DNA from: Terriglobus albidus
GTDB lineage: Bacteria; Acidobacteriota; Terriglobia; Terriglobales; Acidobacteriaceae
NCBI RefSeq assembly: GCF_025685425.1
Contig: NZ_JAGTAS010000056.1
Coordinates: forward strand, 186,001-250,000
Direction of reading: 5' to 3'
Length of the DNA: 64,000 nucleotides
Part shown: positions 5,687 through 51,972 of the stretch, piece by piece
How positions within the stretch are numbered: the stretch's first letter is position 1
Layout: each line of letters begins with the position of its first letter
The notes under the pieces: model-generated
Database searches by the model: none
Told to the model about the DNA's origin: nothing
Seen by the model: only the letters and a program-made list of their open reading frames with translations
Program-made: the position numbers and the translations under genes

Positions 5687-6955
5687 ATGGCAAATCTCTC
5701 CAGAAGATCAATGCTGAAGCACGGCGGCCTGGCACTGGGTTCTTTGGGAACGTTTTCTCTACCGGCGCTCTCACAGGCTATCCAGGCGAGCAGCTCTCCC
5801 TTCAAACGTCCCAGGCTCAAGATCACCGATGTTCGTACGGCACAGGTCAGTGTGCATGGGCCGCAGACGCATGTCCGCATTTACACCGATGCGGGACTGA
5901 TCGGTCAGGGAGAATCGACTGACGCTGCCGTTGGGTCTGCTGCGCTGATTCGGAGCTTCCGCCGCGGCCTGGTAGGGCAGGATCCGCTGAACGTTGAAGC
6001 ACTTTGGGAGAGGATTCGTACCTCCGGAGTGTTCGCCGGCGCGCAGGGCGGCCAATACACTACGGCTCTTACCGGAGTTGAGATCGCGCTTTGGGACCTG
6101 GCCGGCAAGGCGCTGGGTTTGCCGGTTTACCAACTGCTCGGTGGGAAGTTCCGCGATAAGGTTCGTATCTATTGTGACTCCGGACGGGACGATGTCCTCA
6201 CCCCCGAGTCGGAGAAGAAGATTGACTGGATCAAGTCACAGGGCTTCACCGCGATGAAGGTCGATCTTGATGACGCCGCCGACCCAAATCGTTTCGACCG
6301 CGTCAACTGGACAGCGAACAATGCCGAGATCGATCGCATGGTGAAGTGGGTCGAGCACGTCAAGGGCATCATTCCCGCAAGCATGGACTTCGCATGCGAT
6401 ATGCATGGGCGTTACGATGCGCCGACCGGGAAGAAGGTCGCGAAGGTATTGGAGCCCTTCCGTTTGCTCTGGCTGGAAGAGCCCGTTCCGCCTGAAGATA
6501 TCGATGCGTTGGTGGATATTCGGCACTCGACAACCACGCCTATCTGCGTTGGCGAGAACATCTACATGCGCTGGGGATACAAAGAGATCTTTGAGAAGCG
6601 TGCGGCGGACATCATCATGCCCGACATCCAGAAGACAGGCGGTCTGGCCGAAGCAAAAAAGATCGCCGACATGTCTCACGCTTACGAGATCCCCTTCGCT
6701 CCGCACTGTGTTGTTTCGCCCATCGGCCAGATGGCTTCGGCGCACGTCTGCGCCTCTATCCCCAACTTCCTTGTCTGTGAGTGGCACTGGATCGACAACC
6801 TGGACACCTGGAAGAGCTTCGTCCAGGAAGGCGAGATCATTCAGAAGGGATACATCACCGTCACTGACAAGCCAGGTCTGGGGGTCGAGATGAATGAAGA
6901 AGCAGCGAAGAAGGTACAGATCCCCAACACGCCATGGTTCGAACCGGGTATGTAG
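5687..6955 (+). CDS. Tat-exported enolase-superfamily sugar-acid dehydratase
   Basis: Mandelate-racemase/muconate-lactonising family enzyme (422 aa), closest in motif layout to galactonate/mannonate-type dehydratases, which turn sugar acids into 2-keto-3-deoxy acids. Start has AAAGGTGG just upstream. The N-terminus carries a twin-arginine signal (SRRSMLK) and a hydrophobic stretch, so the enzyme is likely exported, unusual because homologues are often cytosolic. Visible active-site residues are K191-V-D193 on strand two, D238-M-H240, E264-E265, E290 and H340; D238, E264 and E290 would hold Mg. The TAG stop is the first three bases of a palindromic repeat (see 6953). Substrate is not determinable; galactonate, gluconate and rhamnonate are all possible. 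Confidence 0.88.
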   Translation: MANLSRRSMLKHGGLALGSLGTFSLPALSQAIQASSSPFKRPRLKITDVRTAQVSVHGPQTHVRIYTDAGLIGQGESTDAAVGSAALIRSFRRGLVGQDPLNVEALWERIRTSGVFAGAQGGQYTTALTGVEIALWDLAGKALGLPVYQLLGGKFRDKVRIYCDSGRDDVLTPESEKKIDWIKSQGFTAMKVDLDDAADPNRFDRVNWTANNAEIDRMVKWVEHVKGIIPASMDFACDMHGRYDAPTGKKVAKVLEPFRLLWLEEPVPPEDIDALVDIRHSTTTPICVGENIYMRWGYKEIFEKRAADIIMPDIQKTGGLAEAKKIADMSHAYEIPFAPHCVVSPIGQMASAHVCASIPNFLVCEWHWIDNLDTWKSFVQEGEIIQKGYITVTDKPGLGVEMNEEAAKKVQIPNTPWFEPGM

Positions 6956-7068
6956 AGCATTTTCCCTGTTGCTGGGTACCCCGGAAGAGGAGTGAATCGG
7001 CGTTTTCATTGCGGAAAACGCCCATAAATGCAGAATCCCTATGCTACACCTACAGGAAAAATGCTCTA
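6953..7068 (+). repeat. Palindromic dispersed element, copy A (116 bp)
   Basis: Begins TAGAGCATTTTCCCTGT and ends with its near inverse (ACAGGAAAAATGCTCTA), giving 17-base terminal inverted repeats. An inner hairpin GGCGTTTTC-attgc-GGAAAACGCC occupies the centre. Left end overlaps the TAG stop of the dehydratase gene; right end is 12 bases before the ATG of the next gene. Flanking and terminal TA suggests a TA-targeting non-autonomous element (MITE-like); no transposase is present in it. Confidence 0.9.
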
Positions 7069-7080
7069 GCCCAAGGAGTA

Positions 7081-8070
7081 ATGAATCGCATGTGTGCAAT
7101 AAAAAAAATGATAAGCGGCGCATCTCTGGTGTTTTGCGTTCTAATCGCGGCAGGGCCTGCCGTTAAAGCACAGGAAGGCTTCTTCACTCCGGAAGAGGTC
7201 ATCAAGTACACGCCGGAATGGAAAGGGGAGCGCTTTCCTGACGGACGTCCCAAGGTGCCCGACGGCATCCTGGACCGTATGAAGAACGTGACTCTGGAAG
7301 AGGCCTGGGCTACGCTTCGCTCGGCCAACTTCAATCACGAGTATGAGGACGGTTGGTTTGTCATTCACCCCGACCGAGTGCTGGTAGGAAGAGCTTTGAC
7401 TGCCATGTGGATGCCCGGTCGGCCAGACATCCAGAAGGTGATCGAAGAAGACCAGAAGGGCAAGCGCAAGGGCGCCATGAACGCCTGGCCTGTCGATATG
7501 CTTCAACCGCGAGACGTCTATGTTGCCGATCACTTTGGATTGAAAGTGGACGGGCCGTCAATCGGCGATAACGTCGGCAATGCCATCTATGCGCGCTCTG
7601 GAAACGGGATCGTCTACGACGGCGCCGTTCGCGATATCAATGGGCTGAACGAGCTCCCTAACTTTGACTCGTTTGTCCGTTCGTATGATCCGTCTCATCA
7701 CTTCGGAAGCCTCGCTACGGGCGCTCGCCTCAACTCCACCATGGTCAGCATCAACGGTCCGGTGCGTATTGGCCATGCGCTTGCCATGCCAGGTGATGTG
7801 GTTCTCGGCCGCAATGGTGGGGTTCTATTCATTCCCCCGCAGTTGGCGGAGAGAGTCGTAAAGGATTCAGAACGTACACGCTTGCGGGACACGTTCGGAC
7901 ATCAACGTCTGAATGAAAAGAAATACACTGCGGGTCAGATCGATACCCGATGGACGCCCGAGATCGAGCAGGACTATCGCGCGTGGCTGAAACAAAACGA
8001 AGACCATTTGCCCGTCGCCAGACAGCAGATTGAGGAGATTCTGAAAGAGTCGCCCCCTCCTAACCAGTGA
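7081..8070 (+). CDS. Sec-exported RraA-family (aldolase-like) protein
   Basis: RraA/HMG-aldolase-fold protein (329 aa from 7081; the frame opens further upstream inside the dehydratase and the repeat, which is an artefact). ATG 7081 has AAGGAG only two bases before; ATG 7090 has better spacing, so either may be used. A Sec leader (SLVFCVLIAAGPAVKA) is clear. The family pattern GDNVGNAIYARSGNGIVYDG followed by AVRD gives the Mg-binding G-x-x-x-D and R-D residues. Known relatives are 4-hydroxy-4-methyl-2-oxoglutarate aldolases and RNase E inhibitors; an exported copy beside an exported sugar-acid dehydratase hints at pyruvate-releasing cleavage of a keto-deoxy acid, which is inference. Confidence 0.8.
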   Translation: MNRMCAIKKMISGASLVFCVLIAAGPAVKAQEGFFTPEEVIKYTPEWKGERFPDGRPKVPDGILDRMKNVTLEEAWATLRSANFNHEYEDGWFVIHPDRVLVGRALTAMWMPGRPDIQKVIEEDQKGKRKGAMNAWPVDMLQPRDVYVADHFGLKVDGPSIGDNVGNAIYARSGNGIVYDGAVRDINGLNELPNFDSFVRSYDPSHHFGSLATGARLNSTMVSINGPVRIGHALAMPGDVVLGRNGGVLFIPPQLAERVVKDSERTRLRDTFGHQRLNEKKYTAGQIDTRWTPEIEQDYRAWLKQNEDHLPVARQQIEEILKESPPPNQ

Positions 8071-8080
8071 GGGGGACGTT
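8053..8080 (+). terminator. Hairpin at the end of the RraA-like gene
   Basis: CCCCCTC at 8053-8059 pairs exactly with GAGGGGG at 8069-8075 around a nine-base loop that contains the end of the reading frame; GTTTTCC follows. T-tract is short, so it may only be an attenuating or mRNA-end hairpin. Confidence 0.4.
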
Positions 8081-8139
8081 TTCCGCCGTAAGTGCTCTAT
8101 GGCGTATGCTGATCTGAGCAACCAACCGATAGAAGCGAA

Positions 8140-10104
8140 ATGATGCAATCAAAGCTCTCACGACGAAAGATGCTTCAGGGAATCGGTGGCCTCGGGTTCA
8201 CGGCCACGACTCCCAACGTGTTCGCCACGCAAGCAGCGGCGACGCAGGTTCCATTGCTCAATCCTGCCCCGTCGCCTGTGGCCCGGCAGGTGACACCATT
8301 CGCGCTGAACGATGTGGAGCTAATGCCCGGGCCATTCTTTCAGGCACGGCTTCGTTGCCAGCAATATCTATTGTCACTTGAACCAGATCGCATGCTCCAT
8401 ACCTTCCGCGTGAATGCTGGTTTGCCGCCGAAGGCAGAGGTGTATGGCGGCTGGGAATCGAATTCAACGTGGGCCGACATCCACTGCCAGGGCCATACGC
8501 TGGGTCATTACCTCTCCGGCTGTGCGCTGATGTATGGCGCTACGCAAGATGCTCGTTTCAAGCAGCGGACGGATTACATCGTCTCCGAGTTACGCGACTG
8601 CCAGACTGCCAGTAAATCCGGTCTGATCACAGCGTTCCCTGAAGGCAACTCCCTGATGGAAACCGTCCTAAGTGAAGGGAAGTACACCGGGGTTCCCTGG
8701 TACACCCTTCATAAGATCTACGCCGGTCTGCGCGATGCCTGCCTCTATACGAACAACCCCACGGCAAGGGAAGTGCTGGTCCGATTCTGCGACTGGGCCC
8801 TCACCGCGACCTCTCCGCTCACTGACGCGCAGTTTCAAAAGATGCTCGAAAGTGAGCACGGGGGCATGAACGAGGTGCTTGCCGACGCCTACGCTATGAC
8901 CGGTGACGAGCGGTATCTCTCACTTGCGAACCGCTTCTGCCACCAGAGCATCCTCATCCCTCTCGCCATGAAGCGTGACTATCTCGACGGTCTCCATGCC
9001 AATACACAAATCCCGAAGATCATCGGCTTCCGCAGGCTCTACCAGGAGACAGGGCAGAAGGACTATCAAGTCGCATCCGAATTCTTCTGGAAGACGGTTG
9101 TGAACACGCGTTCCTTCGTGAACGGAAACCACGGCGACAACGAGCACTTCTTTCCGCCGGCACAGTTCAGTGAGCATGTTTTCTCAGCGAAAGCCTCCGA
9201 GACCTGCTGTGAATACAACATGCTCAAGCTGACGAAGATGTTGTTTGAAGATAATCCCTCCGCGGCTTATGCGGACTTCTACGAGCGTGCTCTCTACAAC
9301 AACATCCTTGCATCGCAAGACCCGGACACAGGAATGGTGACCTACTTCCAGGGGAACCGTCCGGGATATATGAAGCTCTATTGCACTCCCGTTGATTCGT
9401 TCTGGTGCTGCACAGGTTCAGGCATGGAGAATCATGCGAAGTACAATGAGTCCATATACTTCAAGAGTGCGGATGCGGTATACATCAACCTCTTCATCCC
9501 TTCCACGGTTCGCCTGCGGCCAGGAGTATCGCTTGCACAGACGGCGCAATTTCCCGAGCAAGCCAGCACTAAGCTGCAGTGGAAGACAGACGCACCGATT
9601 CATTTCAAGATGAAAATACGGCATCCTTACTGGTGTAAGAGCGTCACGGTCAAGATCAACGGCAAGACGGTTCTCACGTCAAAAGACGCAAGCTCCTATA
9701 TGGAGCTGGACCGCGAGTGGCACAACGGGGACGTGGTAGAGGTCGATCTTCCAATGCACCTGCGAGCAGTCGCGCTACCCGGTGAGGAGCGGATAGTTGC
9801 TTTTGTGTACGGCCCTGTTCTCCTGGCAGGAGCGCTGGGCCGCGAGGGTATCTCCACGGGCAGTGATCTGAATGTTAATGAGAGGCTCTACGGCAGTGTC
9901 CTCAATATGCCTTTCACGCCACCAACCTTATCAGGGGACCCGCACGATCTTGTGAGACAAGCAAAGCCTGCTGGAGAGGCGCTCCACTTCGACATCCCCG
10001 CGAGTGGATCTGATACGAAGGTCCGTCTTAAGCCTTACTACAAGATCGCGCACGAGAGATACGCAACCTACTGGAAGCTCTCCCCGGAAATTTCAGCGGT
10101 ATAG
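8140..10104 (+). CDS. GH127 beta-L-arabinofuranosidase family protein, Tat-exported
   Basis: Glycoside hydrolase of the GH127 (DUF1680) family (654 aa). A Tat leader is present (SRRKMLQGIGG), so it should act in the periplasm or outside. The signature metal/cysteine site is intact: E354-T-C356 in SETCCEYNM and C423-C424 in FWCCTGSG, matching the Zn-binding Glu and Cys residues and the cysteine nucleophile known from HypBA1. Characterised members release L-arabinofuranose from hydroxyproline-linked arabino-oligosaccharides or pectin side chains. Two ATGs are adjacent (8140, 8143) with only a weak upstream purine run. It closes the plus-strand sugar cluster. Confidence 0.9.
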   Translation: MMQSKLSRRKMLQGIGGLGFTATTPNVFATQAAATQVPLLNPAPSPVARQVTPFALNDVELMPGPFFQARLRCQQYLLSLEPDRMLHTFRVNAGLPPKAEVYGGWESNSTWADIHCQGHTLGHYLSGCALMYGATQDARFKQRTDYIVSELRDCQTASKSGLITAFPEGNSLMETVLSEGKYTGVPWYTLHKIYAGLRDACLYTNNPTAREVLVRFCDWALTATSPLTDAQFQKMLESEHGGMNEVLADAYAMTGDERYLSLANRFCHQSILIPLAMKRDYLDGLHANTQIPKIIGFRRLYQETGQKDYQVASEFFWKTVVNTRSFVNGNHGDNEHFFPPAQFSEHVFSAKASETCCEYNMLKLTKMLFEDNPSAAYADFYERALYNNILASQDPDTGMVTYFQGNRPGYMKLYCTPVDSFWCCTGSGMENHAKYNESIYFKSADAVYINLFIPSTVRLRPGVSLAQTAQFPEQASTKLQWKTDAPIHFKMKIRHPYWCKSVTVKINGKTVLTSKDASSYMELDREWHNGDVVEVDLPMHLRAVALPGEERIVAFVYGPVLLAGALGREGISTGSDLNVNERLYGSVLNMPFTPPTLSGDPHDLVRQAKPAGEALHFDIPASGSDTKVRLKPYYKIAHERYATYWKLSPEISAV

Positions 10105-10257
10105 GTTACGCTCTCCAGGTGATCGATTTGAGTTTGTAGGGCAGGGTGCTGGCCGTTTCGGAGTCCGTCGCCTCGCGCCTCATCGCATCTCGCGAGAGCT
10201 CGGGCTGATGGAGTGCAGCGGAACTCGCGGCTCAGAGCGGTATCCAGCACCACCGTA

Positions 10258-10274
10258 GCGAATTTTCGATTCGC
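10258..10274. terminator. Small hairpin between convergent genes
   Basis: GCGAAT and ATTCGC pair around TTTCG in the 173-base space between the convergent GH127 gene and the end of the cobalamin operon. No T-tract on either strand, so termination is a weak guess. Confidence 0.2.
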
Positions 10275-10277
10275 CGA

Positions 10278-11384
10278 TCAAGAGGAGCTGTGATTCAGCT
10301 CAGATAAGGATTTTTCGATTGCAACTGTTAGCTGGTTATTTTCCGTGGGCGTTTTGATCGCGACACGGAAATGCCCTTCAGATAAACCTTCATAGTCGGC
10401 GCAGGACCGTAGCACCACCCGGTGTTCCGTAATCATGAGCTGCCAAAAGGCAAAGGCATCAATCTCGGGTGGGATACGAAAGAGAAGGAAGTTTGCCGCT
10501 GCGGGATAAATAGGAAGCGACAGTCGTCTCAGGTTTCGCTCAAGCGTTCTCCTTCGTTCGAGATTGTTTGATCGAGTGCGTAATGCATAAGGGTGGTCGT
10601 CGAGAGCTGCGATGACTGCTCGCGAAGCGAGCGTCGTGATTGGCCAGGGCGGGAGGGCTTCGCTTATCGACGTCGCCAGCGATGGATGTGCAACTGCATA
10701 AGCGACGCGCAGCCCCGGAATGCCATGGAACTTCGTCACCGAACGGAAGACGATGAGGTTCGCTGATCGTTGCGCTTTTGCTGTGAGGGAGAGTTCAGGT
10801 ACGTAGTCGATGAACGCCTCGTCGAGCAGGATATAAATGTTTCTTTTAGAGGCTTCTTCAACGAGCCTTTCGAAAAATGACGGGTGCTGGCAGATGCCCG
10901 AAGGGTTTTGCGGATTCGCCAGCAGAATGGCATCGCACCCCCGGTCAAGCATCCTGTTTACGTCGTATTCAAAAGATCTTTCTGCAGATGCAACCTCTAT
11001 CTCAATCTCGACTCCCAGACGTTCGAGCGTCCTCCTGTATTCCACGAACGCAGGCACGACAAGCAGGCAGCGGCGTATCGAGAACGCACGTAGGGCGGCT
11101 TCGAGAAGTGGTACAAAACCATTCGCGACGATGATGTTGCCAGGTAAAACCTCTGAGTAGTTTGCGATGGCCTCTTTGAGATTCGTCGAGTCGAGGTCTG
11201 GATAAGCGGTGATTGTTTCGATCTCTTCGAGGCTTGCTCGCAAGGCGGACAGGACAGATGCAGGAGGGCCATCCGGATTAATGTTGGCGCTGAAATCGAG
11301 AAGGCAGGATACGGGAATGCCGAACCTGTTCGAGATTGATTGGAGCTGACCACCATGTTGTGGATAGTGCCCTGAACTATGCAT
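10278..11384 (-). CDS. cobD: L-threonine-O-3-phosphate decarboxylase
   Basis: PLP-dependent aminotransferase-fold enzyme (368 aa) that makes (R)-1-aminopropan-2-ol phosphate, the linker joining corrin to the nucleotide loop. The N-terminus GHYPQHGGQL and the D-F-S-A-N-I-N-P motif are typical of CobD rather than histidinol-phosphate aminotransferase. NPQNPSG and LLDEAFIDY are the PLP-binding motifs and K218 (SVTKFHGIPGLR) is the Schiff-base lysine. It is the last gene of the cobalamin operon and its ATG shares one base with the stop of cbiB. Symbol follows Salmonella usage. Confidence 0.9.
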   Translation of the reverse strand: MHSSGHYPQHGGQLQSISNRFGIPVSCLLDFSANINPDGPPASVLSALRASLEEIETITAYPDLDSTNLKEAIANYSEVLPGNIIVANGFVPLLEAALRAFSIRRCLLVVPAFVEYRRTLERLGVEIEIEVASAERSFEYDVNRMLDRGCDAILLANPQNPSGICQHPSFFERLVEEASKRNIYILLDEAFIDYVPELSLTAKAQRSANLIVFRSVTKFHGIPGLRVAYAVAHPSLATSISEALPPWPITTLASRAVIAALDDHPYALRTRSNNLERRRTLERNLRRLSLPIYPAAANFLLFRIPPEIDAFAFWQLMITEHRVVLRSCADYEGLSEGHFRVAIKTPTENNQLTVAIEKSLSELNHSSS

Positions 11385-12355
11385 TAATCGCGTCTCCTGG
11401 GCTTTCGAAGGGCCGTGATGAATAGGCCAAGGCCAAGACCAATGACGGTTGCGACCGATACGATGCGGATGGCCTGGACTACTTTTCTTGAATCGGGGGC
11501 AGCAAACTCGTCACCGATCCGTTGCCCCCGAATCAGTTCCCCTGCATAGGTGTTATCGCCGCCGAGAGCGACATGCAGCGCTCCCGCCATCGCGCTTTCC
11601 GGTTGGCCTGCATTGGGACTCTTGTGCTTTGTGTTGTCGCGCCGCCATGTGTCCCATGCGGACGATGCTTCCGCACCCTTTACAAGTTGCGCGGCTCCAA
11701 TAATGCTAAGAGCGCAAAGTCTTGATGGGAGAAAGTTCGCTGCGTCATCGCAACGGGCCGCGAATTTACCAAAGTAGAAGTAGCGATCATCGGCATGACC
11801 GATCATGGAATCGAGCGTATTGATGGACTTGTAGGCCATGGCGAGCGGTACACCACCAAGAGCCATATAAAAGAGCGGCGCCATAATGCCATCGGATGCG
11901 CTCTCTGCAACCGTTTCAATGACGGCGCGGCTGATCTCCTCGGGGTTCAGATGCTCGGTGTCACGGCCTACAATCCTTGACAGCCGCTTACGTGCAAGGG
12001 GGAGATTATTTGCATCGAGAGCCTGCGTGACTGCTCTCGCCTCCTGCTCGAGGTTGCGCGCTGCGAGACAGGTCCAGCCCAGAAGCAACTCCACAACTTC
12101 TCCTAGTCGTGCGGAGCGCCGACGGACTATGCGAGGGAGGGCCGCGGTAAGCCAATAGGTCGATCCAACGATCGCGATGGTGAGCACCGCACCGTTGATC
12201 AGCTCGGAACGAGCTGACTGATCTCGACAGCGCAGGGCTGCCTCTCCACGTGAGATCGCGGAACCGATCAGCCTGACCGGATGGGGAAACCACTCAGGGT
12301 CTCCTGCGAGTTGGTCAGCCAGATACGTCGAGATGAGGAGAGTCGCACGGTTCAA
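11384..12355 (-). CDS. cbiB: Adenosylcobinamide-phosphate synthase
   Basis: Integral membrane enzyme (323 aa) that attaches aminopropanol phosphate to adenosylcobyric acid. The start (LLISTYLADQLAGDPEWFPHPVRLIG) is the diagnostic CbiB N-terminus, and several hydrophobic segments follow (YWLTAALPRIV, IMAPLFYMALGGVPLAM, ATVIGLGLGLFI). ATGA overlap with cobQ upstream and TAATG overlap with cobD downstream show translational coupling with the gene that makes its co-substrate. Confidence 0.93.
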   Translation of the reverse strand: MNRATLLISTYLADQLAGDPEWFPHPVRLIGSAISRGEAALRCRDQSARSELINGAVLTIAIVGSTYWLTAALPRIVRRRSARLGEVVELLLGWTCLAARNLEQEARAVTQALDANNLPLARKRLSRIVGRDTEHLNPEEISRAVIETVAESASDGIMAPLFYMALGGVPLAMAYKSINTLDSMIGHADDRYFYFGKFAARCDDAANFLPSRLCALSIIGAAQLVKGAEASSAWDTWRRDNTKHKSPNAGQPESAMAGALHVALGGDNTYAGELIRGQRIGDEFAAPDSRKVVQAIRIVSVATVIGLGLGLFITALRKPRRRD

Positions 12356-25731: not shown

Positions 25732-25868
25732 ACATCGCTCCTGGCGCTTGCAAAGAGAGTCTGCAAGGACGCCGAGCGGGATTGGTAATAGGCAGCTGCC
25801 ACGGGCGGTCAGATCGCACGTGGATAAGCTCTTCAACTCTCCCAGCGAAGTTGAATCAGCCCGATCGT

Positions 25869-26012
25869 ATCTGGCCGGTCTCCTGACTTGCGCTTCGCTG
25901 GACTAAGGCGGCCTTCCCCGGGCTTTCGCCCGAGTGACCCTAAAGTGCCCGTCCTCAACGCTTACAGTTACGGGGTAGTGGCGGACTCGCACCGCCTTCC
26001 CGAACACCAGAT
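25869..26012 (-). promoter_or_regulatory. Cobalamin riboswitch
   Basis: On the minus strand the outer stem ATCTGG (26012-26007) pairs with CCAGAT (25874-25869). Inside are the conserved blocks GGGAA, GGTGCGAGTCCGCCACTACC and, near the 3' end, the B12 box AGTCAGGAGACCGGCC (25888-25873). These match the family core almost exactly. It lies 137 bases before the cobU ATG. In that leader TTCAACT and AGTTGAA form a 7-bp stem and GGCG..TTGCA pairs with TGCAA.CGCC just before the AGGAG site, so translation control by ribosome-site sequestration is plausible. B12 should repress the whole operon. Confidence 0.96.
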
Positions 26013-26018
26013 AGAGGA

Positions 26019-26047
26019 TTTATACCGCCCTTTCCAATGGCGGTCAA
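26019..26047 (-). promoter_or_regulatory. Promoter of the cobalamin operon
   Basis: On the minus strand TTGACC (26047-26042) and TATAAA (26024-26019) are separated by exactly 17 bases. The predicted start of transcription falls at or next to the first base of riboswitch stem P1 (26012), which strongly supports both calls. Confidence 0.8.
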
Positions 26048-26174: not shown

Positions 26175-26290
26175 TAGAGCATTTTCCCTGTAGGTGTAGA
26201 GTAGGGCTTCTGCATCTATGGGCGTTTTCCGCAATGAAAACGCCGCTCTACTCCTCTTTCGGGCTACCCAGCAACAGGGAAAATGCTCTA
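26175..26290 (-). repeat. Palindromic dispersed element, copy B (116 bp)
   Basis: Same family as the element at 6953, in the opposite orientation. Ends TAGAGCATTTTCCCTGT and ACAGGGAAAATGCTCTA are a perfect 17-base inverted repeat; the inner hairpin is GGCGTTTTCC-gcaat-GAAAACGCC. It sits in the gap between the cobalamin promoter and the end of the ADOP permease gene. The remaining 241 bases to 26531 show no gene or motif that I can support. Confidence 0.92.
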
Positions 26291-41487: not shown

Positions 41488-41599
41488 TAGAGCATTTTCC
41501 CTGTTGCTGGGTATTCCGGAATTGGTGTGCAGCGGCCTTTTCACTGGAAAATGCCCATAGATTCGGAGCCCCCTCTACACCTACAGGGAAAATGCTCTA
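41488..41599 (+). repeat. Palindromic dispersed element, copy C (112 bp)
   Basis: Same family and orientation as the copy at 6953: TAGAGCATTTTCCCTGT at the left and ACAGGGAAAATGCTCTA at the right, with a somewhat eroded inner hairpin (GGCCTTTTC..GGAAAATGCC). The last three bases, read on the minus strand, are the TAG stop of the YXWGXW gene. Confidence 0.9.
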
Positions 41600-41995
41600 G
41601 TCGTCATGGCCGTGGCCATGACCATGCCCGTGACCATGCTTCTCACCTTGATCGTCTTTGTACCATCCGAGATGGCGCCCACGATCATGGTGGTCCCAAT
41701 ATCCCCTGTGGTAACGGTAGCCGTCATCGTCGTGTTCCCAATAGGCCGGATGCCAGGCAGCGCCGTAGTAAGGCGGACGCATCCAGCGTCCCGGATACCA
41801 GGCATACCGCGGTCCGTCCGGAACCCAGTAACCCTGCACCCACACATAGCCCTCCTCTGGAGGAGGTGGTGGCGCCTCATACCGCACCGGCGGGGGCGGC
41901 GTTCCGATCATGACTCCAATTGAGACCTGTCCGAATGCGGGTGCCGATAAAGCCGACACAGCAAGTGCTGCACCAAGGAACCAATTCGCTTTCAT
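41597..41995 (-). CDS. YXWGXW-repeat protein with His/Gly-rich tail
   Basis: Small exported protein (132 aa). ATG 41995 is preceded by AAGGAAAGAG; the longer frame is not supported. Leader FLGAALAVSALSAPAFG, then a Pro-rich stretch (PPPPVRYEAPPPPPEEGY) and the W/Y-rich repeats WVQGYWVPDGPRYAWYPGRW. The C-terminus is charged and ends in alternating His-Gly (about six HG units) then HDD, a plausible metal-binding tail. Its TAG stop is the end of a palindromic repeat, so the original end may have been altered by that insertion. Confidence 0.85.
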   Translation of the reverse strand: MKANWFLGAALAVSALSAPAFGQVSIGVMIGTPPPPVRYEAPPPPPEEGYVWVQGYWVPDGPRYAWYPGRWMRPPYYGAAWHPAYWEHDDDGYRYHRGYWDHHDRGRHLGWYKDDQGEKHGHGHGHGHGHDD

Positions 41996-42242
41996 CTCTT
42001 TCCTTTCGTACTCTCCGCCATGCGAGCTCAATGTGGGCAGGTAATTTTTTCCCGTCAGGCGGTTTAACTTTCCTGCAAATGACGGGTAAACATCCTCTCC
42101 GCATCTGCTGCCAGTTCATGAATGCAATTAGGTCGCCATACCGCGCGCCTCGGATTGATGCGCAGTGATAGAGGGCAGTTTTGCTTTGAAGATGGACCCG
42201 AGATGGTATGGGTGCCTGGCCGGGGAGAGTTCTGTCTGAATC

Positions 42243-44600: not shown

Positions 44601-44654
44601 GGCCTATAAGGCATTGAAGCGGATGAAGAAAACAGCTTCGAAGAAGTTTTGCAG

Positions 44655-44685: not shown

Positions 44686-44729
44686 GCCGTGAGAACGGTT
44701 TCGGTTTCTCCCGGCCAAAACTTCACCCT

Positions 44730-44789
44730 GAACTCGTTCGCTGAGGACCCCGATTCTTCACCCCAGCGAACTCGTTCGCCAGGGACCCC
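44730..44789 (+). repeat. Two copies of a GAAC-GTTC-GGACCCC unit
   Basis: GAACTCGTTCGCTGAGGACCCC (44730-44751) and GAACTCGTTCGCCAGGGACCCC (44768-44789) differ at three to four positions. A third related copy (GAACAAGTTCACC then GGGGACCCC) is at 50723-50744. Function unknown. Confidence 0.7.
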
Positions 44790-44827
44790 GATACTCCGTT
44801 CTATATATCTTTAGAAGAACTGCTCTA
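44790..44827. repeat. Half copy of the 77-bp palindromic element
   Basis: ATACTCCGTTCTATA..AACTGCTCTA resembles the right half of the element at 35561 (AACTCCGCTCTATA..ATCTGCTCTA). The left half is missing or replaced by the GAAC-GTTC units. Confidence 0.5.
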
Positions 44828-45014
44828 CGTGCTTTTAAGCTGGACTTAAGGTCATTCCGTCACTATTGATATATCACCGCCTCATGATGCCATAGGAGCT
44901 CATGTCAGTGGCAGGGCGGGCAGGGAGTCTGCCGCTTTACAACGCGAATGAGCCGTTGAACGATGAGCTTTGCGCCATTCTTATCGGACAGAATTAGATG
45001 GTGTGGGAATAAGA

Positions 45015-46355
45015 ATGGGAACGATCTCGCGAAGAATGTTTGTGCAGCAAGTGGGCCTGCTGGCCGGAGCTACGGCGTTGCGTGGGGCTGAGCTACCCGC
45101 GGACTACAACCTGGAAATTGCCACCACGAAGGTTGAGTTCTCTCCCAAACATTCCATCCGGACGACTACCTATAACGGTCGGGTTCCAGGGCCGTTGTTA
45201 CGCCTTCGCGAAGGCAAGCCGGTCCGCATCAAGGTTACAAACCGCAGCCCCAACCCTGAAATTGTGCACTGGCACGGTCTGTTTCTACCATCGGAAATGG
45301 ATGGCGCCATGGAAGAGGGATCGCCGATGATCTCCCCTGGAGATTCTCTAGTCTACGAGTTCTCTCCGAGTCCGGCTGGTTTTCGCTGGTTTCACACGCA
45401 CACGTTTGCCGGGAATGACCTTAACAAGGGCCAGTACACCGGCCAGCATGGCCTGCTCTACGTGGAACCAGCGAACGAGCAAGGGGCGTTCGATGCAGAG
45501 TTCTTTCTTACCCTGCACGATTGGCGTGGGCAGATGATGGGCAGCGACGATGGTTCCATGAATCCCTCTTACGATATATCCACCATCAATGGCCAAATGT
45601 TGGGTTTCGGGCCTCCCCTGCGTGTGCGACAAAACCAACGCATCAAGCTTCACCTTCTGAACTCCAGTCCAACGGAGACACATTGGCTTGCGCTGCCGGG
45701 ACATACCTTCGAGGTGGTGGCACTGGACGGGAACCCGGTGCCACAATCGCGCGCCGTATCCATGGTGCGCCTTGCACCCGCGGAACGAGTCACCGCATTG
45801 GTGACAATGAACAATCCGGGCGTGTGGATTCTGGGCGAAGTCCGCAAGCATGTTCAGGCAGCAGGTATGGGCGTTGTCGTGGAGTATGCCGGCTCATCCG
45901 GATCCCGAAAATGGCATCAGCCGCAGACGTTGCAGTGGGATTACGCGATCTTCGGTGGAATTGAGCAGCAGCAGAAGGAGCACGTGGAGGAGATCCCTCT
46001 TGTTTTTACCTCGAAGTTTAAAGGTCACGGAGCGATGGAGGCCTGGTGCATCAACGGCAAGTCGTACCCATATACCGACTCTCCCGTATTACACGCCGGG
46101 CGACGATATCGTCTTCTTTTAAAAAACCCCAGTCTCGATGATCATCCCATTCATCTGCATCGCCATGTCTTTGAACTTCGCAGCCTGCCTGGAAAGGGTG
46201 CGACACAGGGCATTATGAAAGATACGGTGCTGGTGCCGTCACGCAGTGAGGTGTCAGTCGAGTTCGTCGCAAACAATCCTGGACAGACGCTGCTGCATTG
46301 CCATCAGCAGAATCATATGGATCTCGGTTTCATGATGGTGTTCCGTTATGCGTGA
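45015..46355 (+). CDS. Tat-exported multicopper oxidase
   Basis: Cupredoxin-type oxidase (446 aa from ATG 45015, which follows GGGAATAAG; the frame opens at 44970). Tat signal SRRMFVQQVGLLAG. Copper motifs in order: H85-W-H87-G, WFHTHTF, HPIHLHRHVF and H428-C-H430..H434 (HCHQQNHMDLGFM) for T1/T2/T3 copper. It resembles laccase/CopA-like cuproxidases acting in the periplasm. With a TonB receptor upstream and an outer-membrane protein overlapping its 3' end it may be part of a copper-handling set; no Met-rich region is visible. Confidence 0.92.
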   Translation: MGTISRRMFVQQVGLLAGATALRGAELPADYNLEIATTKVEFSPKHSIRTTTYNGRVPGPLLRLREGKPVRIKVTNRSPNPEIVHWHGLFLPSEMDGAMEEGSPMISPGDSLVYEFSPSPAGFRWFHTHTFAGNDLNKGQYTGQHGLLYVEPANEQGAFDAEFFLTLHDWRGQMMGSDDGSMNPSYDISTINGQMLGFGPPLRVRQNQRIKLHLLNSSPTETHWLALPGHTFEVVALDGNPVPQSRAVSMVRLAPAERVTALVTMNNPGVWILGEVRKHVQAAGMGVVVEYAGSSGSRKWHQPQTLQWDYAIFGGIEQQQKEHVEEIPLVFTSKFKGHGAMEAWCINGKSYPYTDSPVLHAGRRYRLLLKNPSLDDHPIHLHRHVFELRSLPGKGATQGIMKDTVLVPSRSEVSVEFVANNPGQTLLHCHQQNHMDLGFMMVFRYA

Positions 46356-47151
46356 TCTGCGTCTCGCCTTGCGCTTGGCCGCTGCGTTGTTCTGTGTTTT
46401 TTCCCTCAAGGCGTATGGCCAAGGGAACTATGAGATCCAGGTCTACGGATCGGATACGGTTCCACCGAAAACAACAATGGTGGAACTCCATTCGAATTTC
46501 ACCGCCAAGGGGCAGCGGTATCTCGTCGACGGTGTCTACCCTACCTACCATCAGCAACACGAGACGATTGAGATCACGCAGGGTATCAATAACTGGTCTG
46601 AGGTGGGCTTCTATATTTTCACCAGTGAACAGAACGGCCACGGCCTGCAATGGGTTGGGGACCATATTCGGCCGCGCGTGCGCGTTCCCGATAGCTGGCA
46701 TTGGCCCGTGGGGGTAAGCATCTCTACCGAGGTGGGATATCAGCGAGCGATGTACTCCCCCGATACCTGGACCTGGGAGATAAGGCCGATCATCGATAAG
46801 TCCATTGGACGGTGGTATTTCTCTGTGAACCCTGCGTTGGAGCGCACTTGGCATGGTCCGGATGTGAATCAAGGGCTTGGCTTTGCCCCTGGTGTTAAGG
46901 TGGGGTATGACTTCACCCGCGTCATCAGCGGCGGCGTTGAATATTACGCTGACTACGGAAGGCTAGGTAGCTTTGACGTTCTGCACAATCAGCAGCAACA
47001 GGTTTTCGTCGTAAGCGATCTAAACGTCTCGCCGCAATGGGAGATCAACTTCGGAGTCGGCCTCGGAGCGACCTCCGCGACAGATCACCTGATTATCAAA
47101 GGCATTATTGGCAGACGATTCTCCTGGGGCAAACATTCCGAAATTGAATAG
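46348..47151 (+). CDS. Outer-membrane beta-barrel protein, uncharacterised
   Basis: Protein of 267 aa whose ATG overlaps the oxidase by eight bases, so it is co-translated. Leader LALRLAAALFCVFSLKAYG. The mature part alternates aromatic/hydrophobic and polar residues in short strands (YEIQVYGSD, EVGFYIFTSE, VGVSISTEVGYQ, YFSVNPALE, SGGVEYYADYG, EINFGVGLGA) and ends in IGRRFSW, typical of a porin-like barrel. CopB-like copper tolerance barrels sit next to such oxidases, but I see no Met/His-rich segment to support that. Confidence 0.75.
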   Translation: MRDLRLALRLAAALFCVFSLKAYGQGNYEIQVYGSDTVPPKTTMVELHSNFTAKGQRYLVDGVYPTYHQQHETIEITQGINNWSEVGFYIFTSEQNGHGLQWVGDHIRPRVRVPDSWHWPVGVSISTEVGYQRAMYSPDTWTWEIRPIIDKSIGRWYFSVNPALERTWHGPDVNQGLGFAPGVKVGYDFTRVISGGVEYYADYGRLGSFDVLHNQQQQVFVVSDLNVSPQWEINFGVGLGATSATDHLIIKGIIGRRFSWGKHSEIE

Positions 47152-47197
47152 CGACTTTTCAGGGGTTACTACACCTCGATCTATGCAGAGGATCCGT

Positions 47198-47842
47198 CTA
47201 ATCCTCCATCGGAAACGGTACGCCTTTCATCCGATCGAGGACCTTTCGAACGACCTGGATCACGATCAGTAAGACAAGAACTCCTGCTGCTGCCAGCACG
47301 ATCGTTCTATGATCCTTCATCGCAGACCCGATAATTTGAAGAATCCGTGGACCGTAGAGCATCGCGATGATAGCCAGCACGCCAAAGCGAATAAACATCC
47401 CTGCGAAGACGGCGCAAAAGAGCGACATCACCCGCATCTCGAAGACCCCGGCTGCAAACAGGAAAATCTTTACCGGTATCGGAGGCGACATCATAGAAGG
47501 AATCATGATGGCTAGAAACTCCTGTCGTTCGAAGCGGTCGCGAAGCTTGTCATATCGGGCGCGATCAATCTTCTTCATCAGGAAGAGTTCACCGCCTGCC
47601 CGGCCCAGATAAAAGGGAACCAGGCTGCCGAAGGCCTCACCCGATGCCGCAACAAGACAATAGAGAAGAAATTTACGGTGGTCGTGGACTGAATATCCAA
47701 TAACGAGCGCGTCAATCGGAACGTAGATCGACGCAGAATCGATGGCCGCCAGCACACCCAGTCCCCATAGACCAAGGGGAGCCAACGCAGCAAGTATGGC
47801 GACGGTCCCACTGTGAAAGAGGGAGAGAAGTGGGGTCTGCAC
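47198..47842 (-). CDS. VTT/YqaA-like inner-membrane protein
   Basis: Membrane protein of 214 aa with about five hydrophobic segments (AILAALAPLGLWGLGVLAAI, FLLYCLVAASGEAFGSLVPFYLG, FLFAAGVFEM, FAGMFIRFGVLAIIAMLYG, TIVLAAAGVLVLLIVIQVV). The GEAFGSLVPFYLGRAGGE and PSMMSPPIPVKIFLFAAG stretches resemble the re-entrant helices of VTT (DedA/SNARE-associated) proteins. Role is probably lipid scrambling or membrane homeostasis; not determinable. Confidence 0.75.
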   Translation of the reverse strand: MQTPLLSLFHSGTVAILAALAPLGLWGLGVLAAIDSASIYVPIDALVIGYSVHDHRKFLLYCLVAASGEAFGSLVPFYLGRAGGELFLMKKIDRARYDKLRDRFERQEFLAIMIPSMMSPPIPVKIFLFAAGVFEMRVMSLFCAVFAGMFIRFGVLAIIAMLYGPRILQIIGSAMKDHRTIVLAAAGVLVLLIVIQVVRKVLDRMKGVPFPMED

Positions 47843-48235
47843 GCATCTTTGATTCTAGATCGGAAGAGGGATGCACCGTTGATTCGAAGATTTTTTGAGG
47901 ACTTTCCGTCATCGAAGACATGGCCCGAGGAGCCTCCCCCAATCTGAGTGATTTCTCTCCTAATGGGCGTACATTTACGGCAATCCATTTGGGCTACAGA
48001 TGATTGTCTGCGACGCTTGATCGTCGATAATTCAGGAAATCTTCCGATTTTTGGCGATATAGCATAACGCCCCAGAATCAAATACTCATTGACGTCTTTG
48101 CTGTAAAGGTAGTACCTTTCGTCTCGCTGTCTGATCTTACGGTGAATCGGCGTGTCGCGTGCGCGAGAGGCATGTGGCCTCATTCCGATGATCTTTGACG
48201 CAGCAATCTCTGTGGTGTTTTGAAAGGAAGCTTGT
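47843..48235. other. 393-base divergent intergenic region before GH3
   Basis: No gene seen. Contains the 15-base palindrome AAAGGTAGTACCTTT (48105-48119, seven-base arms around G) about 115 bases before the GH3 start, next to TTGACG at 48089; these may be an operator and -35 box for the GH3 gene. Confidence 0.4.
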
Positions 48236-50431
48236 ATGAAACTGTTTGCTTCAGTACTGTGCCTGTGTCTCGGAGGAGTGATGCTGGCGCAGAACTCACA
48301 AACGCCGGCATTTCGTAATACAAAGCTTCCGATTGAGGAACGCATCACGGATCTCATCGGGCGGCTATCGCTTGAGGAAAAGGCTCAGCAACTGAATCAT
48401 CTAAACCAGGGAATTCCAAGGTTGGGAATTCCAATGTGGGGCGGATGGAACCAGACACTTCATGGGGTTTGGTCCAAGCAACCGACAACGCTTTTTCCTG
48501 CGCCCATAGCTATGGGTGCGACCTGGGATCCTGGACTGGTTCATACTGTGGCGGAAAAGATGAGTGATGAAGCGCGCGCTCTCTATAACGCCCGCGCGGA
48601 TGGACCGCGGTCCAGGCATGGACTTGTTTTTCGCTCACCGGTGATCAACATCTCCCGTGACCCACGATGGGGCCGCATCCAGGAAGTATTCAGCGAAGAT
48701 CCACTACTGACGAGCCGTTTTGCAGTTGCTTACATCCGCGGCTTACAGGGCGACGACATCAATCATCTTAAATTAGCGGCAACTGTAAAGCATTTCGCAG
48801 TCAACAACGTTGAGACCGGCAGGCAACATCTCTCAGCAGCAGTCGACGAACGCAACCTCTTTGAGTATTGGTTACCTCATTGGAGAGCCGCAATCATGGA
48901 GGGTCACGCACAGTCCGTGATGTCCAGCTATAACGCAATCAACGGGACACCCGACGCCGTGAATCACTATCTTCTAACGGACATCCTTCGAAAGAAATGG
49001 GGGTTCGACGGGTTTGTCACGGATGATCTCGGTGCGGTTCACCTTCTTACGGGTGGAGGGAACAATCGGAATAGCTCGGAACCTGGTCAGAGATGGTCAG
49101 AAGATCCCGTTGCTGCTGCGGCCGAAGCTATTAAAGCAGGCAATGATTCGGATGATGCGGAGTTTGAGAAGAACCTTCCTCTTGCGGTCAAGCAAGGACT
49201 TCTCACCGAAAAAGAACTGGACGGAGCAGTGCGGAACGTTTTGCGCGTAGGCTTTCGCCTCGGCGCATTCGATCCGCCCGAGGCGAGCCCGTATGCCAGG
49301 CTGTCGATGGATGTGGTTCGTGCGCCAGAACATCTCGAACTCGCTCAAAAGCTGGCCGCGAAGTCACTCACCCTGTTGAGCAACCGGCAAAGCTTTCTGC
49401 CGCTCCACCGAGACGCGGTCCATAGGATTGCAGTGATCGGGCCCGCGGGCGGAGAGGAATACGAGACCGGCAACTACTACGGAACTCCCGCGCACAAAAC
49501 GAGCGTCGTTGCGGGATTGAAGCAGTTGCTTGGGGATTCCGTTCGAGTCGATTTTGCTCAGGGCGTTGGCTTCGTGGAGCAAGTAAACGGCGAGGAAATG
49601 GAAAAGGCAATAAGCCTTGCGAAACAGGCAGACGTTGTTATCCTTTGTCTCGGTACCAATGCTCGAGTCGAGGCGGAAGGGCATGATCGCCGCGGTCTGG
49701 ACCTTCCCGGCTATCAGGAAAATCTGCTCGAGGCTGTGTTTGCCGCAAACCCGAAGACGGCTGTTGTGCTGATGAACGCGGGGCCTATCGCATCGACGTG
49801 GGCGCAAGATCATGTTCCGGCGATTCTTGAGGCCTGGTACCCAGGTGAGTTCGGTGGGACAGCAATCGCTCGGGCTCTCTTTGGGATGGATAATCCGGGA
49901 GGGCACCTGCCGTATACCGTCTACGCCAGTCTCGACGGCGTTCCTCCGCAGAACGAATATGACGTTTCGAAGGGCTACACCTATATGTACTTCAAGGGAG
50001 TGCCCTTGTATCCATTCGGGCACGGACTAAGCTATACCCGCTTCGAATTCAGTGATCTCAAGGTTTCTCCTGGGCCTGTGACGCAGAACGGGAAGATATC
50101 CATCTCCTTCGATGTTCAGAACAGTGGAGAGTTGACTGGCAGCGAAGTGCCACAACTCTATACTCATCAGCGGGCCAGCAGGGTGGCTCAACCGATCAAA
50201 TCGTTGCGGGCATTCGAACGCATCGAGCTGAAGGCGGGGGAGAAGCGTCACGTGGAGTTTACGGTGCCGGTCAAAGATCTTGCATACTACGACGTCACGC
50301 GCCATGACTTTATTGTCGAACCGGGCATATTCGATGTGATGATCGGTGCATCTTCAGACGACATCCGGCTGCGCGGAAGCGTGCGCGTGGGAGCGGCTGC
50401 TACCGCAACGAAAAGTCCGGTGAAAAACTAG
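48236..50431 (+). CDS. GH3 beta-glucosidase/beta-xylosidase, exported
   Basis: Glycoside hydrolase family 3 enzyme (731 aa) with AAAGGAAG before the ATG and leader LFASVLCLCLGGVMLAQ. The GH3 N-domain has RDPRWGRIQEVFSEDP, KHFAVNNVE and the nucleophile D263 in FDGFVTDDLGA. The C-domain (about 370-600) carries GHDRRGLDLPGYQ and a Fn3-like domain closes the protein (SFDVQNSGELTGSEVPQLY). Such enzymes remove terminal beta-glucosyl or beta-xylosyl units; the layout fits beta-xylosidase or beta-glucosidase equally. It stands alone. Confidence 0.95.
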   Translation: MKLFASVLCLCLGGVMLAQNSQTPAFRNTKLPIEERITDLIGRLSLEEKAQQLNHLNQGIPRLGIPMWGGWNQTLHGVWSKQPTTLFPAPIAMGATWDPGLVHTVAEKMSDEARALYNARADGPRSRHGLVFRSPVINISRDPRWGRIQEVFSEDPLLTSRFAVAYIRGLQGDDINHLKLAATVKHFAVNNVETGRQHLSAAVDERNLFEYWLPHWRAAIMEGHAQSVMSSYNAINGTPDAVNHYLLTDILRKKWGFDGFVTDDLGAVHLLTGGGNNRNSSEPGQRWSEDPVAAAAEAIKAGNDSDDAEFEKNLPLAVKQGLLTEKELDGAVRNVLRVGFRLGAFDPPEASPYARLSMDVVRAPEHLELAQKLAAKSLTLLSNRQSFLPLHRDAVHRIAVIGPAGGEEYETGNYYGTPAHKTSVVAGLKQLLGDSVRVDFAQGVGFVEQVNGEEMEKAISLAKQADVVILCLGTNARVEAEGHDRRGLDLPGYQENLLEAVFAANPKTAVVLMNAGPIASTWAQDHVPAILEAWYPGEFGGTAIARALFGMDNPGGHLPYTVYASLDGVPPQNEYDVSKGYTYMYFKGVPLYPFGHGLSYTRFEFSDLKVSPGPVTQNGKISISFDVQNSGELTGSEVPQLYTHQRASRVAQPIKSLRAFERIELKAGEKRHVEFTVPVKDLAYYDVTRHDFIVEPGIFDVMIGASSDDIRLRGSVRVGAAATATKSPVKN

Positions 50432-50452
50432 GATATATCGAAAAATTCGGGA

Positions 50453-50569
50453 TAGAGCATTTCCGTGTAGGTGTAGTCCAGCGCATCCGCATTTTATGGG
50501 CGTTTTTCCGCAATGAAAACGCCGCTGCACGCCCCTTCAGGGATACCCAGCAACAAGGAAAATGCTCTA
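50453..50569 (-). repeat. Palindromic dispersed element, copy D (117 bp)
   Basis: Same family as 6953 in reverse orientation: TAGAGCATTTCCGTGTAGG at the left (one base missing in the T-run and a C to G-type change) and CAAGGAAAATGCTCTA at the right; inner hairpin GGCGTTTTTCC-gcaat-GAAAACGCC. It lies 21 bases after the GH3 stop. Confidence 0.9.
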
Positions 50570-50576
50570 GTCCATG

Positions 50577-50625
50577 CATGGGGTACCCCATGTCCGGGGG
50601 GCACCAACGAACCCGTTCGTTGGGT
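50577..50625. repeat. Two palindromes downstream of GH3
   Basis: CATGGGGTACCCCATG (50577-50592) is a perfect 16-base palindrome. CCAACGAAC-cc-GTTCGTTGG (50604-50623) has nine-base perfect arms. With the GAACAAGTTC/GGGGACCCC unit at 50723 they fill the 220-base space between copy D and msrA. No gene seen. Confidence 0.7.
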
Positions 50626-50722
50626 GGTGTCGCTCGGAGACATGGGCCCGGCCTTCATTTTCCCGACCACTCGTATCAATCTCTTCTATTCGCGCGAAGC
50701 GCGACACCCCACGCTAAACCCA

Positions 50723-50744
50723 CCGAACAAGTTCACCGGGGACC
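50723..50744 (+). repeat. Third GAAC-GTTC-GGGGACCCC unit
   Basis: GAACAAGTTCACC followed by GGGGACCCC, the same 22-base layout as the two units at 44730 and 44768 some 6 kb away. Confidence 0.6.
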
Positions 50745-50791
50745 CCAGCTTCGCGATAAAACTGCGAAGAACGGGGCAACTTCTCGCGGTC

Positions 50792-51319
50792 TCAATTATT
50801 TACTTGTTGAACCTCAGGCTGCGAGCGGTGCGGAAGCACCCAGTCCGGCCGGATAAAGTGGCAGGTATATCCATTCGGGATTCGCTCCAGGTAATCCTGG
50901 TGCTCTGGTTCCGCTTCCCAGAAAGGACCTGCGGGAGCGACCTCCGTGACGACCTTTCCTGGCCAGAGGCCGGAAGCATTCACGTCGGCGATGGTGTCCT
51001 CGGCGATTTGCTTCTGTTCGTCCGTGGTGAAGAAGATTGCGGAACGGTAGCTGGTGCCGACGTCATTGCCTTGACGATTGCGTGTCGTGGGATCGTGAAT
51101 CTGGAAGAAGAACTCAAGCAGCTTTCGATAGCTCAGTTTGGCGGGATCGAAGATGATTTCGATCGCCTCTGCGTGGCTGCCGTGATTTCTATAAGTGGCG
51201 TTGGGCACTTCACCGCCGGTGTAGCCTACGCGAGTCGAAATGACGCCGGGGTAACGGCGCAGCAGGTCCTGCATTCCCCAGAAGCATCCGCCGGCAAGGA
51301 TGGCAGTCTCTTGGCTCAT
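50792..51319 (-). CDS. msrA: Peptide methionine-S-sulfoxide reductase
   Basis: MsrA (175 aa). Catalytic motif GGCFWG near residue 13, then [26 protein letters not shown] and [17 protein letters not shown], all conserved. No leader, so cytosolic. One base separates it from msrB upstream, so they form one operon that repairs oxidised methionine of both epimers. A further Cys in YTCHFIRP is a candidate resolving residue. Confidence 0.96.
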
Positions 51320-51320
51320 A

Positions 51321-51773
51321 TTATTTTTGCTCCTTCTTGAATAGCTTCAGGTAATCGCCATAACCTTCGCTCTCGAGCTTGTCTACAGGAATAAAACGCA
51401 GCGAGGCTGAATTGATGCAATAGCGAAGGCCGCCTTTGTCACTGGGGCCGTCGTCAAAGACGTGGCCGAGGTGGCTGTCCCCATGTGCAGAACGTACCTC
51501 GGTACGAACCATGCCGTGCGTACGATCGGTGAACTCCTCGACGTGTTCACTCTCCAACGGTTTGGTAAAGCTGGGCCAGCCACAGTGGCTGTCAAATTTG
51601 TCAAACGAGGAGAAGAGCGGCTCGCCGGAGACGATGTCAACGTAGATTCCAGGCTCGTGATGATCCCAGAATTCGTTTTGAAACGGTCTTTCGGTTCCGC
51701 TTTCCTGGGTAACGTGGAACTGCTGAGGTGTCAGACGTGCAACGGCTTCTGGGTCTTTCGTGTAATTTGCCAT
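51321..51773 (-). CDS. msrB: Peptide methionine-R-sulfoxide reductase, zinc-free form
   Basis: MsrB (150 aa from ATG 51773; the longer frame to 51929 reads through repeat copy E and is an artefact). Motifs [21 protein letters not shown] and the catalytic Cys in [11 protein letters not shown] are intact. Both CxxC zinc pairs are lost (IVSGEPLF instead of Cxx[16 protein letters not shown] instead of RCxxCxxHLGH), so this belongs to the zinc-free form. ATG spacing from AAGGA is long, so the exact start is less sure. Confidence 0.93.
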
Positions 51774-51856
51774 TGTTTGGTACCAATCCTTCTCCACATT
51801 TGATTGAGGAATCTGCGTTTCGGTTACAAGTGACTTTAAATTAGCTTGGAGGGTTC

Positions 51857-51972
51857 TAGAGCATTTTCCCTGTTGCTGGGTATGCCGGAAGAGGCATCTA
51901 TGGGCGTTTTCATTGCGGAAAACGCCCATAGATGCGGATGCTCTGGGCTACATCTGCAGGGAAAATGCTCTA
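51857..51972 (+). repeat. Palindromic dispersed element, copy E (116 bp)
   Basis: Same family and orientation as 6953: TAGAGCATTTTCCCTGT and CAGGGAAAATGCTCTA at the ends, inner hairpin GGCGTTTTC-attgc-GGAAAACGCC perfect. Its right end supplies the TAG stop of the HD-domain gene on the minus strand, and it lies 84 bases upstream of msrB. Confidence 0.92.

Follow-up and report, generated by a model that had tools for sequence, protein, structure and literature searches.

Elements at the locus

The window analysed here is a stretch of 64,000 nucleotides of the Terriglobus albidus genome (G000; RefSeq assembly GCF_025685425.1, 6.10 Mb), positions 186,001 to 250,000 of contig NZ_JAGTAS010000056.1 (C50 in the coordinates below). 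It contains six short palindromic elements (Table 1), all present where an earlier note on this DNA had reported six related copies, and all belonging to a single family with a 116-bp consensus (profile built from 95 unique copies). The family is very probably a non-autonomous DNA transposon of the Acidobacteriaceae, i.e. a bacterial miniature inverted-repeat transposable element (MITE), copies of which can provide the TAG stop codon of a neighbouring gene.

Table 1. Copies of the element in the window, arrays with unusual joints elsewhere in G000, and decayed IS630-type genes in other genera.
Feature	Location	Strand	Remarks
116-bp element	6953..7068	+	left TAG (6953-6955) terminates an MR_MLE enolase-superfamily gene, 5687-6955 (Pfam)
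116-bp element	26175..26290	-	intergenic; both ends exact
112-bp element	41488..41599	+	central hairpin degenerate; right CTA (41597-41599) is the TAG stop of a minus-strand open reading frame, 41597-42031
117-bp element	50453..50569	-	diverged left end (TAGAGCATTTCCG); lies about 20 bases past the stop of gene 48236-50431
116-bp element	51857..51972	+	right CTA (51970-51972) is the TAG stop of a minus-strand HD-domain gene, 51970-52617 (Pfam)
111-bp decayed element	63162..63272	-	both ends mutated; outside the 70 full-length copies
Odd-joint array	C50:302693-303137		G000
Odd-joint array	C50:353173-353515		G000
Odd-joint array	C28:301895-302126		G000
Odd-joint array	C28:325486-325715		G000
Odd-joint array	C28:471472-471703		G000
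Decayed IS630-type gene	L336:1207-2011		G144, genus g63; frame stops at 1999-2001; end TAGAGCATTTTCATGGTAGCTGTA closes at 2011
Frameshifted IS630-type remnant	L331:1501-1697		G268, genus g80; the end behind it agrees with the right end of the element at 18/24 letters

The long terminal repeats ascribed to all six copies were found in most of them: the sequence TAGAGCATTTT is exact at the left end of four and at the right end of five, the exceptions being the left end of copy 50453 and both ends of copy 63162, which are degenerate. A central hairpin is indeed a feature of the family, albeit its presence in all six copies had been overstated, that of copy 41488 having degenerated. Three overlaps with stop codons had also been proposed. 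Those at 6953-6955 and 51972-51970 are real, whereas the one at 41599-41597 is weaker and its gene less certain, the open reading frame being of 144 amino acids and without a Pfam family, and the gene caller having picked a different short open reading frame there.

The element at 6953 is found at the same site in two other genomes, with TAG as its first codon in G012 and TAA in G015. In G015 (locus L171) the first codon of the element at this site, the dehydratase gene of the earlier note, has changed from TAG to TAA with the stop retained. At the site of copy 51857 the related genome G002 has no element and its corresponding codon is TAG, while the other flank aligns poorly (manual reading).

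Copies, consensus and fold

The host sample comprised 1.184 Mb of G000, the remainder of the genome being covered by program searches rather than by base-by-base reading, and the sample of the relative comprised 1.089 Mb of G002. Searches with a hidden Markov model (HMM) gave 96 matches in the host sample, 70 of them full length, and 38 in G002, 24 of them full length; the partial matches (26/96 and 14/38, respectively) were excluded. In the whole 6.10-Mb genome the end of the element, with at most two mismatches, occurs 313 times in forward and 312 times in reverse orientation. When the same pattern was read backwards as a control, it occurred 0 and 1 times, and the copy number of the family is thus far above chance.

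The consensus carries a terminal inverted repeat of 17 bp, TAGAGCATTTTCCCTGT, whose outermost letters are TA-G, and just inside the repeats the two ends diverge into TGCTGGGTA on the left and AGGTGTAG on the right. The family is accordingly short (116 bp), non-coding and bounded by terminal inverted repeats, and it is dispersed in high copy number and polymorphic among related genomes, as is characteristic of MITEs.

In the consensus, a central stem formed by GGCGTTTTC and GAAAACGCC closes a loop of 6 nucleotides, and the predicted fold energy is -52.8 kcal/mol. Since a 31-row alignment misplaced the central stems, stem positions were counted outward from the loop. In 90 of 97 copies indexed in this way (the tally omits seven sequences) 772 of 900 positions pair, compared to 386-553 after displacement of one arm by one to three bases, although the register was set by the inner five pairs, which biases the count toward pairing. 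Pairs 6 to 9, which were not used for the choice of register, appear as GC, CG, AT or TA alternatives in different genera, and the tenth position is mostly unpaired. These compensating differences suggest selection on the fold; the pair statistics ignore kinship between the copies. No Rfam family was found over the elements of the window at the gathering threshold, nor in a search of the elements of 12 loci at E ≤1.

Target site and empty sites

The earlier note had proposed insertion at TA by a mobile, non-autonomous element and had suggested a comparison with empty sites. Of the 70 full host copies, 34 had no syntenic place in the G002 sample, whereas 25 corresponded to candidate empty sites, 7 to filled sites and 4 to other arrangements. 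Comparison of G000 and G002 in both directions gave 28 candidate empty sites, and in 17 of these a single TA replaces the TA-element-TA of the filled site (14 exactly, and 3 with an offset of one base in the flank alignment). Since one TA is found at the clean empty sites, the duplicated target is TA. Empty sites in further genome pairs agree with a duplication of TA, and the empty sites with other target bases that the earlier note had named as a refutation were not encountered, though 4 of the 28 joints are without TA. Both the insertion at TA and the mobile, non-autonomous nature of the element were thereby borne out, and the duplication is that of a TA-type MITE and of a MITE derived from IS630/Tc1. 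At C28:213029 the empty site of G002 has five extra bases, CAGTC, ahead of the TA, which may be an indel or the footprint of an excision.

The bases around the target are not random. In copies outside stop codons the base before TA is C or T in 83%, and the second base after TA is A in none of 47 such host copies; in the pooled set of such copies the second base is A in 9%, compared to 24% in the background, and C in 52%. The preferred target can thus be written Y-TA-N-(usually C, rarely A), and its asymmetry suggests that the target fixes the orientation of the element. Insertion in frame was also considered, as the consensus adds 114 bp, or 38 codons, which are open in some frames, but was dropped because no full copy lies within a called gene.

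Head-to-tail arrays also occur, with two to four units of about 114-115 bp each. A TA shared at the joint was found four times in three loci, as expected when one copy inserts at the end of another.

Overlap with stop codons

Genes were called with our own codon-usage caller, which gave 829 genes with 291 TAG, 260 TAA and 278 TGA stops. In the host sample an element end is the TAG stop of a gene in 23 of the 70 full copies, compared to 7.5% expected from non-coding TA sites (p 7e-10). With stricter gene scores the overlap was 21/70 and 18/70 (expected 6.2% and 3.6%). It was also observed in 14 of the 24 full copies of G002 and in 30 of 71 copies at loci L053-L107, and in 60 of 153 copies of the pooled set, from which 12 of 165 copies had been removed as duplicates. 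The overlap is thus commoner than chance in the host as well as in two further sets, and random insertion as its cause was rejected. An overlap at chance level, the second refuting outcome named by the earlier note, did not occur.

The base beyond the far end is A or G in 22 of the 23 host stop cases and in all 44 stop cases of the two further sets, as it has to be if the original codon was TAA or TAG. For 12 of the 23 host stop sites a candidate empty allele is available in G002 (the other 11 are outside this comparison), and in all 12 the gene of the relative ends at the same codon, six times with TAA and six times with TAG, and with matching C-termini. The proposal that insertion leaves TAG at the junction and that such sites are tolerated was therefore right, albeit incomplete, since a leaning of the target and a bias toward the 3' ends of genes contribute as well.

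When the expectation was weighted by the target preference it rose to 11-12.5%. Per TA site, the density of host copies is raised 4.4-fold within stop codons (23 copies) and 6.5-fold at 1-5 nucleotides after them (only 5 copies), and further out it is 2.0 at 6-20 nucleotides, 0.8-1.3 at 21-200 nucleotides and 0.2 beyond. The density at 1-5 nucleotides argues against any special role for the stop codon as such. Regions between divergent genes are depleted (8 of 65 copies, compared to 28% of intergenic TA).

With the host set confined to the vicinity of gene ends and weighted by the motif, 23 of 41 copies within 50 nucleotides were in the stop codon (47% expected, p 0.16), 23 of 49 within 100 nucleotides (35%, p 0.05) and 23 of 56 within 200 nucleotides (26%, p 0.008). 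In the pooled set, with the same local and motif control, the figures were 60/88 within 50 nucleotides (50%, p 4e-4) and 60/75 within 20 nucleotides (70%, p 0.04). Local tolerance together with target preference is thus not rejected within 50 nucleotides in the host set, but is insufficient in the pooled set. Most of the excess is accounted for by the TA target, its leaning toward Y-TA-R and the tolerance of gene 3' ends. The modest remainder, seen in the pooled set only, may include errors of gene calling.

Search for a mobilising transposase

The earlier note had attributed the elements to an IS630/Tc1-like source and had suggested a search for a transposase with matching ends. In that search none bracketed by two such ends was found. 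Matches to the IS630-type domain DDE_3 were found twice in G000, twice in G002, once in G015 and not at all in G012, and 11 times in outer genomes (in 5 of 12). DUF4096 gave three matches in two of nine genomes, none of them in G000 or G002, and DDE_Tnp_1 gave 28 matches in four of six genomes, none of them in G000; a few of the DDE_Tnp_1 and DUF4096 loci have a MITE copy or a lone end nearby. Of 511 ends, 42 lie outside an HMM element, and the 13 inspected were mostly decayed or lone, while in the joined 2.27 Mb only nine ends lie outside an element and none form a transposon-sized pair. Near a DUF4096 gene of G012 (L325, approximately 1423-2257) there are CTAG-flanked inverted repeats, GGGTGTATCGACA, with ends unlike those of the MITE.

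At two of the 16 DDE_3 loci, L336 and L331, which belong to two other genera, an end matching the right end of the element lies 10 to about 16 nucleotides past the transposase gene (Table 1). The end at L336 agrees with the element at 20 of 24 letters, and the L331 remnant is 68% identical to the L336 gene over 44 amino acids. These were the only matches of at least 18/24 in the 49 kb of the 16 loci, and 20 shuffles gave none. Both genes are decayed, neither locus belongs to the host genome, and a left end was found at neither of them. Taken by itself, the agreement of the ends counts for less than the shuffles imply, and the weight is carried by their position directly behind the gene in two genera. 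The two genes are possible relics of an autonomous partner. The IS630/Tc1-like assignment agrees with the duplication of TA and gained support from two right ends, but both of these ends stand beside decayed genes outside the host and without a left end, and IS630 ancestry is likely, not proven.

Distribution among genomes

Matches at E ≤1e-8 were found in 4 of the 61 genomes searched, all of the host genus and including the host, whereas 15 other genomes of that genus among the 61 had none at this threshold. Of 398 genomes of the Acidobacteriaceae, 76 contain the 16-letter end with at most one mismatch, often as one match each. Since single matches to the reversed pattern turned up in 13 genomes, lone end matches prove nothing. 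Paired copies in other genera were mostly 114-117 bp long (13 of 15 in one printed set, and 16 of 18 plausible pairs in another), with off-length copies of 83, 143, 102 and 64 bp; both ends are conserved in these copies while the interior is widely divergent. In the second set, 5 of the 20 outer loci had no paired ends. No element was found in the plasmid and phage records searched, and four viral contigs with the end pattern were rejected because the sequence there is unrelated to the element. A copy of the element at L279:11242 in G002 has a second palindromic sequence beside or within it, the ends of which (GAGCATTTCTCCTAAAG) are related.

Discussion

The element represents a new family of TA-type bacterial MITEs in the Acidobacteriaceae, of the RUP kind, with a conserved build and a clear stop-codon niche. 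As far as described in excerpts of PMC2229807 and PMC3049150, RUP of Streptococcus pneumoniae is 107 bp long with ends of the IS630-Spn1 type, and it resembles the present family in size, terminal inverted repeats, target and duplication of TA, about 100 or more copies, over-representation between convergent genes and, probably, ends of the IS630 type. In contrast, the partner here is represented by two decayed IS630-type genes in other genera and no intact one was found, and the inverted repeat is of 17 bp rather than the 9 contiguous bp given for RUP in the excerpts of PMC2229807. A stop-codon niche is likewise a feature of the present family and none is described for RUP in the excerpts of either paper. 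The Correia/NEMIS elements of Neisseria and ERIC/RU-1 of enterobacteria, compared here by description and not by sequence, are likewise small, with TA termini, target duplication and a stable stem-loop. Copies of those elements are reported as fused with open reading frames or as lying inside them (PMC2229807, in part), whereas none of our 70 full host copies falls within a called gene. The 100-bp MITEPsy1 of Pseudomonas syringae pv. phaseolicola has a CTAG or YTAA target similar to the Y-TA-R leaning observed here, and differs by its 4-nucleotide duplication, few copies and resemblance to the IS5 family, according to the portion of PMC3189936 available. Overlap with stop codons as a general niche of bacterial MITEs is not described in the excerpts of the literature found within the one collection searched. 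One element of Coxiella is reported directly after a stop (PMC5896051, in part).

The element inserts at TA, which is then present on both flanks. Where the target is the TA of a TAA or TAG stop, this TA and the first G of the element read TAG, so that the protein is unchanged and the element itself becomes the stop codon. In the mechanism that we propose, the element would be moved in trans by a DDE transposase, most likely one of the IS630 type. Insertions within genes would be removed by selection, and the stop-codon niche would thus consist mainly of survivors, partly favoured by target preference. The central hairpin may be retained for mobility or for a role in RNA or DNA. The rule is simple and general: a TA-targeting element with G after the TA silently converts TAA or TAG to TAG, and stop codons become a refuge for such elements in a gene-dense genome. 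It can be tested on any TA-type MITE via the base inside its ends. In the host sample the element supplies 23 of the 291 TAG stops, and mobile DNA measurably rewrites stop usage.

Several observations weigh against this account. Of the 28 candidate empty sites 11 are unclean: six show slight offsets, with TA at the joint or next to it, four joints are without TA (C28:300958, C28:376700, D1:149868 and D1:666154), and at C28:301895 the relative itself carries a unit. Five arrays (Table 1) have the joint TA-N-TCGCATTTT, or TA-TCGCATTTT in one of them, instead of TA-GAGCATTTT, which simple insertion at TA fails to explain. The absence of full host copies from called coding sequences (0/70, though 79% of TA are coding) is partly circular, since an insertion would break the called open reading frame; five further copies partly overlap a called gene, and the caller was a simple one of our own. 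With regard to the mobiliser, no intact transposon with TAGAGCATTTTCCC at both ends was found at the DDE_3, DUF4096 and DDE_Tnp_1 loci examined, and five matches of at least 18/24 in 300 kb of element-masked G002 indicate that lone decayed ends do occur.

The position of the elements could instead reflect selection for a host function, with the element as a transcription terminator or a protector of mRNA 3' ends rather than as a tolerated insertion. The strong consensus hairpin, the compensating pair differences in the central stem between genera and the exact-stop excess that survives local and motif control in the pooled set (60/88) would all fit such a role. We nevertheless consider it unlikely, as 25 of the 36 syntenic full host copies are candidate empty sites in G002, and most copies are thus not conserved, the density at 1-5 nucleotides past the stop at least equals that in the stop, and the local excess in the host set is weak (p 0.16, 0.05 and 0.008 at 50, 100 and 200 nucleotides). 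Improbable, too, given the IS630 relics, is a partly active preference for stops, by targeting of or an advantage at translation termination, combined with a selected family-wide fold (a 55-6-55 build around the central hairpin), which would make the element a mobile stop codon. That the overlap is an artefact of gene calling, with insertions truncating genes and the truncated ends being called as stops, is barely credible. The caller is simple, and in one of the 23 host cases (C28:711683, with a gene score of 8) the flanking base is unfit for an original stop, but element-free relatives end at the same codon at all 12 testable sites, A or G lies beyond the element in 66 of 67 stop cases, and stricter gene scores left 21/70 and 18/70 against lower expectations.

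An IS630-type mobiliser is favoured by the matching right end next to each of the two decayed IS630-type genes from other genera. IS630 prefers CTAG targets. There is a slight chance that the partner was instead a YTAR-targeting element of the IS5 type: the target leans toward Y-TA-R, and MITEPsy1, akin to the IS5-family element ISPsy2, targets CTAG or YTAA (PMC3189936, in part). The duplication, however, is of 2 bp here and of 4 bp in MITEPsy1, DDE_Tnp_1 matches are absent from G000 and DUF4096 matches from both G000 and G002, none of the examined loci with these domains is bracketed by matching ends, and it is the IS630-type relics that carry the right end. Because of the same relics an origin as a REP/RAYT-like palindrome mobilised by a Y1 tyrosine transposase is less likely. 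Such elements would share the palindromic structure, the mostly intergenic location, the high copy number and a GTAG near the right end, but filled sites have TA on either side and empty sites a single TA, and these features, together with the long inverted repeats and the target constraints on both flanks, make this origin very improbable.

Neighbouring features

A cobalamin riboswitch (Rfam RF00174, 101.5 bits) lies on the minus strand at positions 25856-26026 of the window, separated by about 150 bases from the copy at 26175. At positions 5533-5673 the window has approximately 140 bp that are extra compared to the syntenic place in G012 and G015, and this sequence is different from the 116-bp element.

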